From Sandaracinus sp. (lineage in GTDB: Bacteria; Myxococcota_A; Polyangia; Polyangiales; Houyiibacteriaceae), in assembly GCA_002699025.1 (NCBI GenBank), contig PABA01000080.1, forward strand, positions 1 to 64,000: a stretch of 64,000 bases of DNA, read 5' to 3'. The notes under the pieces were generated by a model. That model saw nothing but the letters and a program-made list of their open reading frames with translations, searched no databases and was not told the origin of the DNA. This document shows, piece after piece, positions 4,786-45,832 of the stretch. A program made the translations under genes and the position numbers. Position 1 is the stretch's first letter; every line of letters begins with the position of its first letter.

Positions 4786-4842
4786 GGCGCCGAGGGGACG
4801 CGCGGCGGGGCCCGGCGCATTCCCGTGGCGCCACGAGGACCT

Positions 4843-4872
4843 TCGTGCTCGTGCTCGTGCTCGTGCTTCGTG
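4843..4872. repeat. GTGCTC hexamer array
   Basis: About four direct copies of CGTGCT lie between the membrane-protein gene and the VWA lipoprotein gene. A second class of hexamer array (GGGCAC) lies 25 bases further on. The same GTGCTC unit recurs at 50926-50956 and, as GTGCAC, at 33328-33348. Confidence 0.85.
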
Positions 4873-4896: not shown

Positions 4897-4934
4897 TGCG
4901 GGCACGGGCAGGGGCAGGGGCACGGGCACGGGTC
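4897..4934. repeat. GGGCAC/GGGGCA G-tract array at the 3' end of the VWA gene
   Basis: Six G3-G4 tracts separated by CA or CAC lie on the + strand, ending 10 bases from the stop codon (4945-4947) of the minus-strand VWA lipoprotein gene. The G-rich strand is the template strand for that gene. The arrangement matches that at 50043-50078 next to the glycosylase gene. Confidence 0.85.
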
Positions 4935-4944
4935 TCGTCTGGGC

Positions 4945-6309
4945 CTATTCGAGGACCGGGCCCATGCAGCCGAAGACCACGTCGATGTCGTCGACCGTGC
5001 CCGCGAGGATCTGGTCGCAGGAGGTCCCGTGAAAGGTCAGCGTCATGGTCGCCGCGTCGTAGGTCCAGCCGTTCGCCGGGTCGTTGTCGATGCCCGCCGG
5101 GTCGTCGTTGAAGTAGACGTAGAGCTGCTCGAGATCGGCCGGCGCCTCGCCGAGGAGGAAGTCGCAGGTGCGCACGTCCGCGGCGATGGCGTCCAGGGCG
5201 CCCGTCAGCGCCGCCGCGTCGCCGGCCGCGTAGTAGCTCGTCGTCCCCCCGGCCGTGGCGACCGCGTTCAGCTCGCCCGCGTCCACGTCGCTCGAGAAGC
5301 CGACCACGTAGGTGCGCACGGGCACGGCCTGGTCGTAGAGGGCCCCGGCGCCGGCGGGCCCGTCCTGCGCGCCGCCCATGGTGCACGAACCGCTCTCCGC
5401 CCCGTCGGTCACGAGGAGCACGGCGTTCGAGCGGGCCGGGTCCTGCAGCGTGGGCTCCCCGACGAAGGCGAAGAGCGTCCGCCCGGTGCTCGTCTCCGGA
5501 TCCCCCGAGTCGCAGAGGTAGCGCGGCGCGGAGCCGTTCGAGCTCCCCTCTCCGCGGAGCGGCGCGAGGAAGTCGTTGATCGCCGTCGCGTTCGCGTCGG
5601 CGATGGGCACGACCACGCTCCCGGCCGAGCAGCCCCCCGGGAGGCAGCTCGAGTAGGTCGCCAGCCCGAAGCGGATGTCCGCGTCGAAGGTCGTGGTGAC
5701 GGTCCGGATGGCGTCCTTGGCCACGTCCCAGCGCGTGCGCCCGCCGACGTCGTTGTCCATGGAGCCGCTCCGGTCGAGGACGATGAGCACGTTCGGCGGC
5801 AGGCGCGTCGTCGCGAACTCGCTCCCGCCGCAGCCCCCGCCGATCTCGCAGGTGCCCGTCTCGAGCGCGCAGCTCCGGCCCTCGGGGCAGTCGCCGACGG
5901 CGGCGCAGGTGCCGCTCGCGAGGCACTCCCGGGACGCCGCGCCACAGGTCTCGCCGACCGCGCAGTCCGCCGACCCGCGGCAGCTCCCCACGGGGATGCA
6001 CACCCCTGCGCCGCTGCAGAAGAGCCCGCCCGCGCAGTCCCCGTCGTCGTCGCAGCGCGTGCTCGGCCCGGCGTCCACGGCGGCGGCGTCCGCCTCGGCC
6101 CCGCCATCCCGAACCGGACCCACGCTCCCCGGCGAACAGGCGGCGGCGAGGAGGATCGCGGCGAGCGCTGACGCGCACGGAGCGGATGGACGCAGGGCGG
6201 ACGGACGCAGGGCGGAGGGACGCAGAGCGGACCGGCGCAGGGCGGACCGGCGCAGGGCGGATGAACGCGGGGCGGACGGGCGCGGGGAGGCGAGCATCCC
6301 GACCAGCAT
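4945..6309 (-). CDS. von Willebrand factor A domain lipoprotein with Cys-rich N-terminal region
   Basis: The 454-residue product has a lipobox LAAAC at C58, a short D/A/G linker, then a Cys-rich segment (about 86-160, more than ten cysteines in short C-x5-C-x4-C units), and a VWA domain opening with the metal site D179-R-S-G-S. The region ahead of the lipobox is unusual: about 40 residues of repeated RRSAL/RPSAL encoded by a 15-bp tandem repeat (6184-6288). Starts are possible at 6309 or 6297, and neither avoids the repeat. A surface-exposed binding or adhesion protein is the likely role. The stop lies beside a G-tract array. Confidence 0.85.
   Translation of the reverse strand: MLVGMLASPRPSAPRSSALRRSALRRSALRPSALRPSALRPSAPCASALAAILLAAACSPGSVGPVRDGGAEADAAAVDAGPSTRCDDDGDCAGGLFCSGAGVCIPVGSCRGSADCAVGETCGAASRECLASGTCAAVGDCPEGRSCALETGTCEIGGGCGGSEFATTRLPPNVLIVLDRSGSMDNDVGGRTRWDVAKDAIRTVTTTFDADIRFGLATYSSCLPGGCSAGSVVVPIADANATAINDFLAPLRGEGSSNGSAPRYLCDSGDPETSTGRTLFAFVGEPTLQDPARSNAVLLVTDGAESGSCTMGGAQDGPAGAGALYDQAVPVRTYVVGFSSDVDAGELNAVATAGGTTSYYAAGDAAALTGALDAIAADVRTCDFLLGEAPADLEQLYVYFNDDPAGIDNDPANGWTYDAATMTLTFHGTSCDQILAGTVDDIDVVFGCMGPVLE
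6184..6288. repeat. seven-copy 15-bp tandem repeat inside a signal-peptide n-region
   Basis: Seven units of 15 bp (consensus GGACGGACGCAGGGC, with one to four changes each) run head to tail. They encode the positively charged RRSAL/RPSAL pentapeptides ahead of the lipoprotein signal of the VWA gene. Because the unit is a multiple of three, gain or loss of copies would keep the frame. Confidence 0.85.
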
Positions 6310-6367
6310 GCCGCATGGCGCCCGGGACGTGCCCCTGGGAGCCGCTGAGATCGCCTGACGGCGCCCC

Positions 6368-9286
6368 TCAGCGCTTCCGCTTCTTCTTCGCCAGCAGCTG
6401 CTCGGCCAGGCTCGCCGGTGGCGCCGCGCCTCCGCCCGGCCCGTCGTCGTCCGACCCCTGCCCGTCGGCGTCCTTCGCGCCGCTGCCCTTCGCGCCGCTC
6501 TTCGCGCCCCGACCCGTCCCCTCCGCGCCCGGCGACGCCTCGCCGGCCCTCGCGAGCGCCTCCCGGACCTCCGGCCCCTCGCGCTCGGCCCGCGCCCGCT
6601 TCGACGCCCGGAGCGCGTCCAGCGTCGCCGTCCGCGCGGGGCCCTCCCTCGCCCGCCGCGCCGAGCGGCGCCGGAACCGCGCGGGCACGAACCGGCGCAC
6701 CAGCCCCGGCGGGAGCACCAGCCGGCGGAGCGCCACCGTGAGCAGGAAGAGCACGAGCGCCGCCATCAGGAGCGGCGGCCAGAGCGGCGCGTAGGCCCAG
6801 GTGGGCGGCGGCCGGTCCACGAAGACCTCGCGGAGATCCTCGCGCACGGCGCCGCCGGTCAGCGCGGCGAGCTGCCCGAGGAGCGCGTGGTTCGTCCCGT
6901 CGCCCCGGAGCTCCTCGCCGCTCGGCCGCACCACGCCAGCGCTCCCGACCATGGCCGCGCCCTCGCCCTCTCCGTCGCCCCCCTGGCGCACGGTCACGAG
7001 GTAGGGCCCGGGCGCGTTCGCGTCGAAGGTCCCCTCGTAGCGGCCGGCGCCGGTCTGGGCGAGGTCGACCTCCACGCGCCGCCCCCCGGGGGCCGCCACC
7101 GTGCCGCCGAGGTCGAGGTAGTTCCGGTAGCGCCCGCCCTCGCTCACGGCCTCGACGCGCACGCGCCCGACGCCGTTCTCGATGCTCACGCTGACCTGCG
7201 CGTCCCGCCGCTCGGGGGCGCGCGCCAGGTCGCGCGAGAGCTGGCTGAAGAGCGTCGCGTAGCCGGGCCAGTCGAGCCAGGCCCGCCCGAACTCCGCGCC
7301 CACGTCGGTCGTGAAGACCGCCGAGCGCCCGATGCCGTGCTGCCACTGGAGCAGCAGCGGGTCCTCCTCGTCGGCCCGGAGGAGCTGCGTGGCCCGCCCG
7401 CGCGGGTTCACCACGGCGCGCCCGCCGAGGGCCGGCACGCTCCCCCAGCCGATGCCCCGCGTCGCCGGCGCGGGCATCACCGGCGCGGGCCGGAAGGGCT
7501 CCTCCACGAGCGCCGCCCGGCTCGCCTCGATGGTCTCCTGCGTGAAGATGCGCGGGAGCTGCGTCAGGTCCTCGACGATGTAGAAGCGCCCGCCGCCGAG
7601 GCGCGAGAGGTGCTCGAGCTCCGGGCTGTGCGGGCCGGCGCCCATGCTCACGATGGAGGTCGTGATGCGCTCCCGATGGGCGCGCCGCACCATCTCGCGC
7701 GTGCCCTGCATCTCCTGCGAGTCCTGGCCATCGCTGAAGAGGAGCAGGTGCTTGAGCTGGGTCTGCTCGCCGCGGAGCGCCTCGAAGGACTCGTCCAGGG
7801 CGACGTTCACGTAGATGCCGCCGCCCCCCGGCTGGGCGCGCCGCACGGTCGCCGCGATGGCCGCCGGATCGCTCACGGAGACCATCGACTGCGTCCAGGT
7901 GACGCCCGTGTCGACGTGCATCACGCCGACCCGGTCCATGGGCGAGAGCAGCATGGCCGAGCGCGCCGCCGCCTCGTTCGCGAGGTCGAGCTTCGAGGTG
8001 CCCGGCACCGCCTCCATCATCATCGAGCCGCTCTTGTCGATGGCGATGACCATGGCGAGGCTGAGCCGGTCGCGGCGCCGGCGCAGATCGAAGCGCGCCG
8101 GGAGCGCCTCCTCGACGGGCGTGTAGGCGTAGCCGCCGAGGCCGAAGGCGTCGCGGGCCCCGGCCATGAGGAGGCCGCCGCCGAGGTCGCGCACGTAGCT
8201 GGCGACGGCGTCCATCTGCTCCGCCGTGAAGGCGCGGCTGTTCAGGTCGCTGAGGACGAGCAGGTCGTAGGAGGCGAGCTCGCCGAGGTCGATGGGGAGG
8301 CCGCGCGGACCGACCAGCTCGACCTCGAGGCCCGCCTGCCGGATGGCCGCCGCGAGGGCCTCGGACTCGGCCGGTGCGCTCGAGGCGACCAGCACCCGCG
8401 AGCCGCCGACGACGCGCATGAAGGCGCCGCCCTCGTTGTTCTCCCGGCCGAGGTCGCGCCCCTCGACCATGGGCTCGACGAGCACGTCGTAGCGGTGGAC
8501 GCCGGCCTCGGGCGCCTCGTCCCGGAGCACCAGCACGTCCGTGCCCTCGCGGAGCTCGGTCTCCGCCTCGGCGATGGTCGCGCCGCCGCGCATCACCCGC
8601 ACCCGCGCCGGCGTCGCGCGGGTGGAGCGGGTGACGACGCGCACCTCGACGGGCTCGCCGGGGCGCGCGGTCGTGGGCACGCGCACGCGCTCGACGGCCA
8701 CCTCCGGCTGGGGCGCCCGCTCGACGGGGAGCACGTCGACCACCACGCCACGCCCCGCCGCGAGCGACGCCGCCGCCAGCGCGTCGCCGCGCGTCTCGAC
8801 GCCGTCCGTGATCAGCACGACGCGCCCCGTGTGCTCGGCCGGCAGGTCCGCGAGCGCGCGCCGGAGCCCGGCCTCGAGGTCGCTCGCGTCGCGGGGCACG
8901 CTCGCCGTGATCTCCCCGAGCGGCGGCCGCACGGAGGGAAGGAGATCGGTCGTGGCCTCGGCGCCGAAGACGACGACGCCCGCCTGGTCGCCGACCTCCA
9001 TGCCCTCGACGCCCGCGCGGATCGCCGCGAGCGCGTCCAGGCCCTCGTCGGCGTGGTCGACGCTCCGACTCCGGTCGACGGCGAAGACGACGGCGAGCCG
9101 GTCGACGCGCCGGCCGAGCTCGAGGCCGCCGAGGGCGAGGGCGGCGCAGGCCGCGGCGAGGAGGTAGGTCGCCTGGATCCAGCGGCGGCGCCCACCGAAG
9201 CTCGCCGGCAGGCGCGAGACCCGCCAGAGCACGAGCAGCAGGACCGGCAGGGCCAGCGCGAGGAGCCAGGGCTGGGCGAAGCGCAT
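6368..9286 (-). CDS. double VWA / glutamine-amidotransferase-like membrane protein, last gene of the MoxR operon
   Basis: The 972-residue protein has two N-terminal helices (about 7-22 and 40-56), a first VWA-like domain beginning D71-R-S-R-S, a central class I amidotransferase-like fold (YDLLVLSDLNSR...GGGLLMAGARDAFG, no obvious catalytic Cys), a second VWA with a perfect metal site DKSGSM near residue 417, a beta-rich region, a C-terminal helix (LLMAALVLFLLTVAL) and a charged Lys/Arg/Gly tail. Its ATG overlaps the stop of the BatA-like gene (ATGA). Membrane VWA proteins of this kind work with MoxR ATPases and DUF58 proteins. The first VWA has R at a position normally G, so metal binding there may be altered. 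Confidence 0.88.
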   Translation of the reverse strand: MRFAQPWLLALALPVLLLVLWRVSRLPASFGGRRRWIQATYLLAAACAALALGGLELGRRVDRLAVVFAVDRSRSVDHADEGLDALAAIRAGVEGMEVGDQAGVVVFGAEATTDLLPSVRPPLGEITASVPRDASDLEAGLRRALADLPAEHTGRVVLITDGVETRGDALAAASLAAGRGVVVDVLPVERAPQPEVAVERVRVPTTARPGEPVEVRVVTRSTRATPARVRVMRGGATIAEAETELREGTDVLVLRDEAPEAGVHRYDVLVEPMVEGRDLGRENNEGGAFMRVVGGSRVLVASSAPAESEALAAAIRQAGLEVELVGPRGLPIDLGELASYDLLVLSDLNSRAFTAEQMDAVASYVRDLGGGLLMAGARDAFGLGGYAYTPVEEALPARFDLRRRRDRLSLAMVIAIDKSGSMMMEAVPGTSKLDLANEAAARSAMLLSPMDRVGVMHVDTGVTWTQSMVSVSDPAAIAATVRRAQPGGGGIYVNVALDESFEALRGEQTQLKHLLLFSDGQDSQEMQGTREMVRRAHRERITTSIVSMGAGPHSPELEHLSRLGGGRFYIVEDLTQLPRIFTQETIEASRAALVEEPFRPAPVMPAPATRGIGWGSVPALGGRAVVNPRGRATQLLRADEEDPLLLQWQHGIGRSAVFTTDVGAEFGRAWLDWPGYATLFSQLSRDLARAPERRDAQVSVSIENGVGRVRVEAVSEGGRYRNYLDLGGTVAAPGGRRVEVDLAQTGAGRYEGTFDANAPGPYLVTVRQGGDGEGEGAAMVGSAGVVRPSGEELRGDGTNHALLGQLAALTGGAVREDLREVFVDRPPPTWAYAPLWPPLLMAALVLFLLTVALRRLVLPPGLVRRFVPARFRRRSARRAREGPARTATLDALRASKRARAEREGPEVREALARAGEASPGAEGTGRGAKSGAKGSGAKDADGQGSDDDGPGGGAAPPASLAEQLLAKKKRKR

Positions 9287-45296: not shown

Positions 45297-45417
45297 CGCG
45301 GGTCGGGCAAAGGGCGGGTCGGCAACGGGCGGGTCGGCAACGGGCGGGTCGGCAACGGGCGGGTCGGCAACGGGCGGATCGGCAACGGGCGGGTCGGCAA
45401 CGGGCGGGTCGGCAAGG
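45297..45417. repeat. 15-bp tandem repeat (about seven copies) ahead of the efflux channel gene
   Basis: Units of GGGCGGGTCGGCAAC repeat about seven times (45312-45416), with one G-to-A change. The array lies 45-150 bp upstream of the minus-strand start at 45266. It also matches a G-tract pattern (GGGCGGG in each unit). Its place in the leader or promoter makes copy number potentially regulatory. Confidence 0.85.
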
Positions 45418-45832
45418 GCGAGCGGACCGACGCCGCGGGGCCGAGCTCCGAGAGCGGCGGTCGGTGGAAGAAACGCTTCGAACATGGGCTCCACGCAGGG
45501 CGGGGGAGGAGAGGGGCCAGACCGAGCGCGGCTCGGCCGGATGAGGGGTGCAGGCGGCCTCGGCCGCGCGAGGGCGGCGAAGGCGGTCCCCGGCGAGCCG
45601 CGCCTTCTGGAGGCGACGGCGCCTGGAGGAGAGGTCGGGCGTGAGCGCTTCGCTGTCCCGCACCTCTCGGCCCGGAGAGCGACCGCTGGGCCGCACGTTC
45701 AGCCACCCGAGGGCAGAGAGCGGCGCGAGCCCCCGGGACGTCGAAGCCTCGGTCGGGCGGATCGGTCACGCCGTCCGCGGAGCGCGCACGACCTGCACTC
45801 GCGACGCGCCGGGTCCGGCGGGCGGGGCAGCC
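45418..45832. other. 415-bp gap without a gene
   Basis: Open frames here on both strands give only Arg/Pro/Gly-rich translations with no codon structure. I see no promoter, terminator or RNA. Together with the repeat array next to it, it forms the longest non-coding stretch of the window. Confidence 0.55.

Follow-up and report, generated by a model that had tools for sequence, protein, structure and literature searches.

The 5' end of a gene for a VWA-domain lipoprotein in Sandaracinus sp. carries a minisatellite that, judged from the sequence, is probably translated from ATG 6297 or ATG 6309 as a tolerated n-region of the signal peptide. The gene lies on contig PABA01000080.1 in the window, by which we mean the whole stretch of 64 000 nt that was analysed. 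We observed the array itself, an open frame passing through it, the lack of a usual start codon behind it, an outlying distance from start to lipobox, a dense background of minisatellites in the same genome, and a second gene of this genome (at locus L108) with a like arrangement.

Results

The gene and its signal peptide

The gene occupies positions 4945..6309 of the reverse strand, as placed by the list of open reading frames, Pfam (VWA, E 5.4e-8; VWA_2, E 8.9e-8) and relatives, and would encode 454 amino acids from ATG 6309. A co-directional gene upstream (6368..9286, reverse strand), for a product with VWA and GATase1-like domains, stops 58 bases short of that ATG. Bacterial lipoproteins are exported by Sec, lipidated at a cysteine and cleaved by signal peptidase II. 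The hydrophobic core and lipobox (ASALAAILLAAA-C; 6136..6174, reverse strand) have the form expected of such proteins, with the invariant Cys, codon 58 from ATG 6309, following an uncharged hydrophobic core (LAAILLAAAC). The n-region ahead of this ordinary core and lipobox holds nine arginines and is thus positively charged, but it is not short: by our own core rule 39 residues separate ATG 6297 from the core, whereas in a set of 472 signal-core genes the 99th percentile for members with an upstream start is 35. A twin-arginine signal, which RRSAL might bring to mind, was ruled out on the argument that about 20 residues separate the RR pairs from the core; by eye, the closest named relatives (L054-L058) have no RR beside the core and the distant relative L067 has one. 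Elsewhere in the window, hexamer arrays stand at or before gene starts (4841-4872, 4899-4932 and 165-232), and the longest open reading frames run through them.

The tandem array

The repeats reported by the first-pass annotation are borne out by Tandem Repeats Finder, which called an array of period 15 at 6182-6287 (7.1 copies, score 128) and the same stretch again at period 45 (6180-6287, score 146), whereas scores reached at most 74 when the 191 bases around it were shuffled 500 times with dinucleotides preserved; the units thus stand in tandem above chance, as in a coding minisatellite. We place seven 15-bp units at 6181-6285 (reverse strand), with the consensus CTGCGTCCGTCCGCC and RPSAL/RRSAL in the gene frame, so that the interval first given, 6184-6309, takes in the array and the start region and misses three bases of the array. 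Read unit by unit in the gene frame, they give PRPSA PRSSA LRRSA LRRSA LRPSA LRPSA LRPSA, 35 residues and not the 40 or so that had been claimed; each unit adds one or two arginines to the n-region, and the array runs in frame into PCASALAAILLAAAC. Units of 15 bp keep the frame, and in this respect the array differs from the frame-breaking type of phase-variable contingency locus, the promoter type lying outside this comparison. Since tandem repeats are prone to assembly error (PMC6868369), the count of seven is provisional. Folding around the array was unremarkable (z-score -0.02), and Rfam gave no match up to E 1 within 6000-6500.

A dispersed DNA family built on this unit was considered and rejected, because a pattern of two units, allowing 3 mismatches at most, matched its own genome at the array alone (6 overlapping matches; 1 for a backward control pattern). 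The pattern matched 14/110 genomes, its own included, and the backward control 5/110; the other 109 genomes of this set belong to other genera of the same family or the same order. With an E limit of 10, a looser BLAST of the same genome listed 42 matches, headed by the array and followed by one of 74% identity at E 7e-9; among the nine inspected, several were other GC-rich 15-bp arrays (L002, L007, L008, L017). A genome from another family of the order has about three LRRSA-like units at G037:C595:11880-11924, where two overlapping pattern matches fell.

Candidate start codons and length of the n-region

In the gene frame the usual starts are ATG 6309 (6307..6309, reverse strand), ATG 6297 (6295..6297, reverse strand), which is the nearest one upstream of the array, and then GTG 6123, already past the lipobox Cys. 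The earlier statement that no start codon lies between the repeats and the hydrophobic core therefore holds for in-frame ATG, GTG and TTG, and it is on this ground that translation of the repeats from ATG 6297 or ATG 6309 is proposed. By eye, neither ATG is preceded by a Shine-Dalgarno-like motif, and no coupling of the gene to its upstream neighbour was seen; such a motif was found at only 324 of 994 predicted starts in this genome (170 at a control distance, whose total is not stated).

Measured from the nearest usual start, the distance to the Cys is 53 for this gene, the longest among 191 lipoprotein candidates in 2.34 Mb of its own genome (median 16, 95th percentile 27; next longest 46, 41 and 35). 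An in-frame start lies 11-25 codons before the Cys in 171 of these 191, and the window gene is without one. A distance beyond that of all other candidates also speaks to some degree against a start at these ATG codons. At L192, 46 residues precede the Cys without a listed array.

Two other ways of starting the protein were weighed. The array may be 5' untranslated DNA, the true start lying behind it and being hidden by a short indel between an out-of-frame GTG (6176..6178, reverse strand) and the core, which would stem from faulty assembly or from a genuine recent mutation. This GTG stands 13.3 codons before the Cys, near the genome median, GTG is common as a start (317/994 predicted), TCA, used for 0.3% of the serines in genes, is among the codons that lead up to the core, and arrays elsewhere in the genome mostly precede the start (see below); yet an out-of-frame ATG, GTG or TTG at a comparable distance before the Cys is found in 77/191 lipoproteins, so that its presence here is unsurprising by chance, and the array at L108 is explained without any such event. 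We regard this explanation as unlikely, though deserving of some weight. Quite improbable, in our judgement, is translation from a CTG towards the end of the array, within its last units, which would yield a signal of ordinary length: there are five in-frame CTG codons inside the array, the last of which (6195) is at an ordinary 19 codons before the Cys, but the repeat itself fills the 20 bases ahead of each and by eye offers no Shine-Dalgarno motif, and CTG starts are rare in bacteria.

Codon-level signals within the array

Translation from one of the two ATG codons was also set against the codon content of the array. Pairwise codon differences between units were synonymous in 27/51 cases in the gene frame, the most frequent of the six frames (3/48, 6/40, 0/51, 15/40 and 14/48 in the other five), an excess that was not significant (placement null, P 0.12). 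Our own codon-based gene finder gave the array a negative score in each of the six frames and took GTG 6123, behind the lipobox, as the start. GC content by codon position is flat in the array (0.77, 0.86, 0.77) vs 0.75, 0.50 and 0.96 in genes, and so looks non-coding, though other n-regions look nearly so as well: the 73 that are at least 15 bases long and lie outside the window, drawn from the 191 lipoprotein candidates, gave 0.74, 0.74 and 0.83. The codon score per codon of the window n-region was -0.54 and that of the other 73 had a median of -0.26, a lower quartile of -0.50 and a 5th percentile of -1.19. Codon usage as proof of a non-coding array was accordingly given little weight. The suggestion of the first-pass annotation that the repeats are translated thus stands as the most likely reading of the sequence, carried by the missing in-frame start before the Cys and by the precedent at L108, and finds no firm backing in the frame test.

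Arrays beside other signal-peptide genes

In the sampled stretches of this genome 67 pairs of an array and a signal-type core no more than 200 bases downstream were listed, and in 61 of them a usual start lies between the two. One lipoprotein gene in the window itself is preceded by a contrasting array of this kind (45298..45420, reverse strand; 15 bp, 8.2 copies, ADPPV in the gene frame), which need not be translated because a pair of ATG codons follows about 31 bases after it. Among the six pairs with no start in between, two were judged genuine by eye, namely the window gene and L109, where a short RTART array surrounds the ATG. Inspection by eye removed the remaining four: L095 and L155 have an ATG in or beside the core, the core of L193 is not signal-like, and L151 has a GTG in the end of the array. 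In the survey of n-regions, start-less L089, L095, L158 and L193 and the long, array-free L165, L133 and L208 were likewise set aside by eye. Neither L155 nor L177 was taken as a case; at L177 hexamer arrays stand near an unclear start.

The closest parallel, outside the 67 pairs, is a reverse-strand gene at L108 that ends at 5132. About ten 15-bp units at 6000-6159 read in frame as RRLGA/RRLCA repeats and pass into a hydrophobic core, LFGALLLGALLLAAPAAAQP. The nearest usual start, ATG 6283, lies 86 codons before the core, which would give an array n-region of 86 residues. This ATG, closely preceded by GGAGG, overlaps (as ATGA) the TGA of a VWA gene that the finder had located independently at 6280-8346, and four-base overlaps of this sort occur in 221/1085 adjacent co-directional pairs of the own-genome sample. 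The mature part of the product has matches in 4/56 other genomes and at a second place in its own. Such an arrangement lends credibility to the view that arrays can be translated as n-regions in this genome. Arrays of 15 bp were also seen inside the hydrophobic core of other signal peptides (L110:13010-13070 and L147:5291-5330, with LLAPT and LLGVA repeats).

Minisatellite background of the genome

The window and 120 further stretches, together 2.34 of the 9.24 Mb of the genome, were surveyed with our own codon-based finder and Tandem Repeats Finder. At a score of at least 70, and with mixed arrays excluded, the intergenic arrays numbered 317 (0.91 per kb of intergenic DNA) and the coding arrays 248, with periods that are a multiple of 3 in 158/317 and 239/248, respectively; at a score of at least 100 all 112 coding arrays in predicted genes had such periods. 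Among intergenic arrays, period 15 is the commonest (43/317), and a unit length that preserves the frame therefore needs no selection in this genome. The earlier remark that the unit keeps the frame is thus correct as to the 15-bp length and loses its value as evidence of selection.

Among the intergenic arrays themselves, periods divisible by 3 are in excess. These were about as common within 150 bases upstream of a gene (45/96) as elsewhere (40/94; P 0.56, in a 1.58-Mb sample from which 44/234 arrays at stretch edges were left out), which rules out the excess as proof of translation. In 400 kb of a related genome (G007) only 5 intergenic arrays were found, 0.12 per kb vs 0.84 in the own-genome sample of the same comparison, this being one relative scored with a codon model trained on the Sandaracinus genome. 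Because intergenic arrays are dense here and sparse in G007, we assign the array in the lipoprotein gene to a minisatellite background that extends over the genome. Short tandem repeats show no average enrichment in bacteria in a survey that may not cover units of 15 bp (PMC12699852). Six further loci of the genome (L073, L074, L076, L082, L086, L151) have recurrent intergenic arrays, mostly of 21-24 bp units, which by eye share a core like GTCCGCAGGAC and apparently form one dispersed minisatellite family.

Relatives of the gene

The gene has matches in 62/115 genomes, its own included. There are also 19 named loci, from uncultured Deltaproteobacteria, Myxococcales and Polyangiaceae, from Nannocystis and Enhygromyxa and from one 'uncultured bacterium'. 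Identity to these relatives is at most 65%, or 66% over part of the protein in L055. N-termini were examined at 21/29 other loci of the genome search and at 17/19 named loci, which make 35 distinct places once three pairs apparently from the same contigs are merged; the stretch of L050 stops short of the N-terminus, and none of the other 34 has by eye a tandem array between start and core. A hexamer array precedes the ATG of L039, and L055, L056 and L057 have longer or unclear starts. The absence of the array from these relatives suggests that the extension is recent or lineage-specific.

Discussion

Our working explanation is that a GC-rich minisatellite, of the sort that crowds the intergenic DNA of this genome, has come to sit in the 5' end of the lipoprotein gene. 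It may have expanded in frame inside an existing n-region, or an upstream in-frame ATG may have taken over after the old start was lost, a takeover made plausible by the length over which frames often stay open in a genome of 74% GC. The product would have an unusually long, arginine-rich n-region followed by an ordinary core and lipobox and, by analogy with other lipoproteins, would be exported by Sec and lipidated at Cys58, with the whole signal removed by signal peptidase II. As the n-region would be removed with the signal peptide, the array could be tolerated, and it is probably a by-product and not a regulator. The start site, the export, the history and the neutrality are the parts of this explanation that we infer.

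The first-pass annotation had proposed that copy number tunes the length and charge of the n-region and, with it, export. As a selected switch, such tuning would draw on units that keep the frame and each bring one or two arginines, and on reports (PMC9942255) that positive n-region charge promotes translocation and that whole-signal charge matters too, values below +2 having favoured secretion in a Bacillus subtilis library. The nine arginines could accordingly help, harm or do nothing. An arginine-rich n-region fits Sec export, and its quantitative effect is a guess. The commonness of period 15 in intergenic arrays, the like frequency of multiples of 3 away from and upstream of gene starts, and the N-termini of relatives, which by eye do without an array, all speak against a selected switch, and we consider it extremely improbable. 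Only slightly less so is the broader idea that 15-bp minisatellites have repeatedly become n-regions (in the window gene, L108 and L109) and serve as a genome-wide, heritable export dial; if true, there would be signal peptides whose length and charge mutate through gain and loss of units.

If the array is a tolerated n-region, it offers a possible route from non-coding minisatellite to protein sequence, at the start of a secreted protein, where the added residues are removed and may therefore be tolerated. It also calls for caution in annotating start sites in GC-rich, repeat-rich genomes, where open frames cross arrays, and the dense intergenic minisatellites of this genome merit study in themselves. 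Among the literature matches listed, which include few subscription papers, none dealt with tandem arrays in the n-regions of bacteria or with myxobacterial minisatellites; absence of such a report is unproven.

With respect to known systems, the lipoprotein CglB of gliding motility presumably also carries a VWA-type domain. Against the corresponding NCBIfam model (NF033757), in which CglB is named as a lipoprotein, the window protein scored 36.6 bits, with its best stretch in the C-terminal part, which falls far short of the curated 200-bit cut-off and places it outside the family; no function can be transferred from CglB on this sequence likeness. With the intragenic minisatellites and VNTRs of bacteria the array shares multiple-of-3 units inside an open frame; unlike typical coding VNTRs, it sits in the n-region of a lipoprotein, which would be cut off from the mature protein. 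The n-regions of yeast are put at about 2 to 10 residues, and up to 20 (PMC9839866), and a lipoprotein motif has been widened so that the basic residue may be preceded by as many as 25 residues (PMC13068155). In known lipoproteins with extended n-regions, as in the window gene, the core and lipobox are normal and the n-region ahead of them is long; what sets the window gene apart from them is that its extra length is a tandem array.
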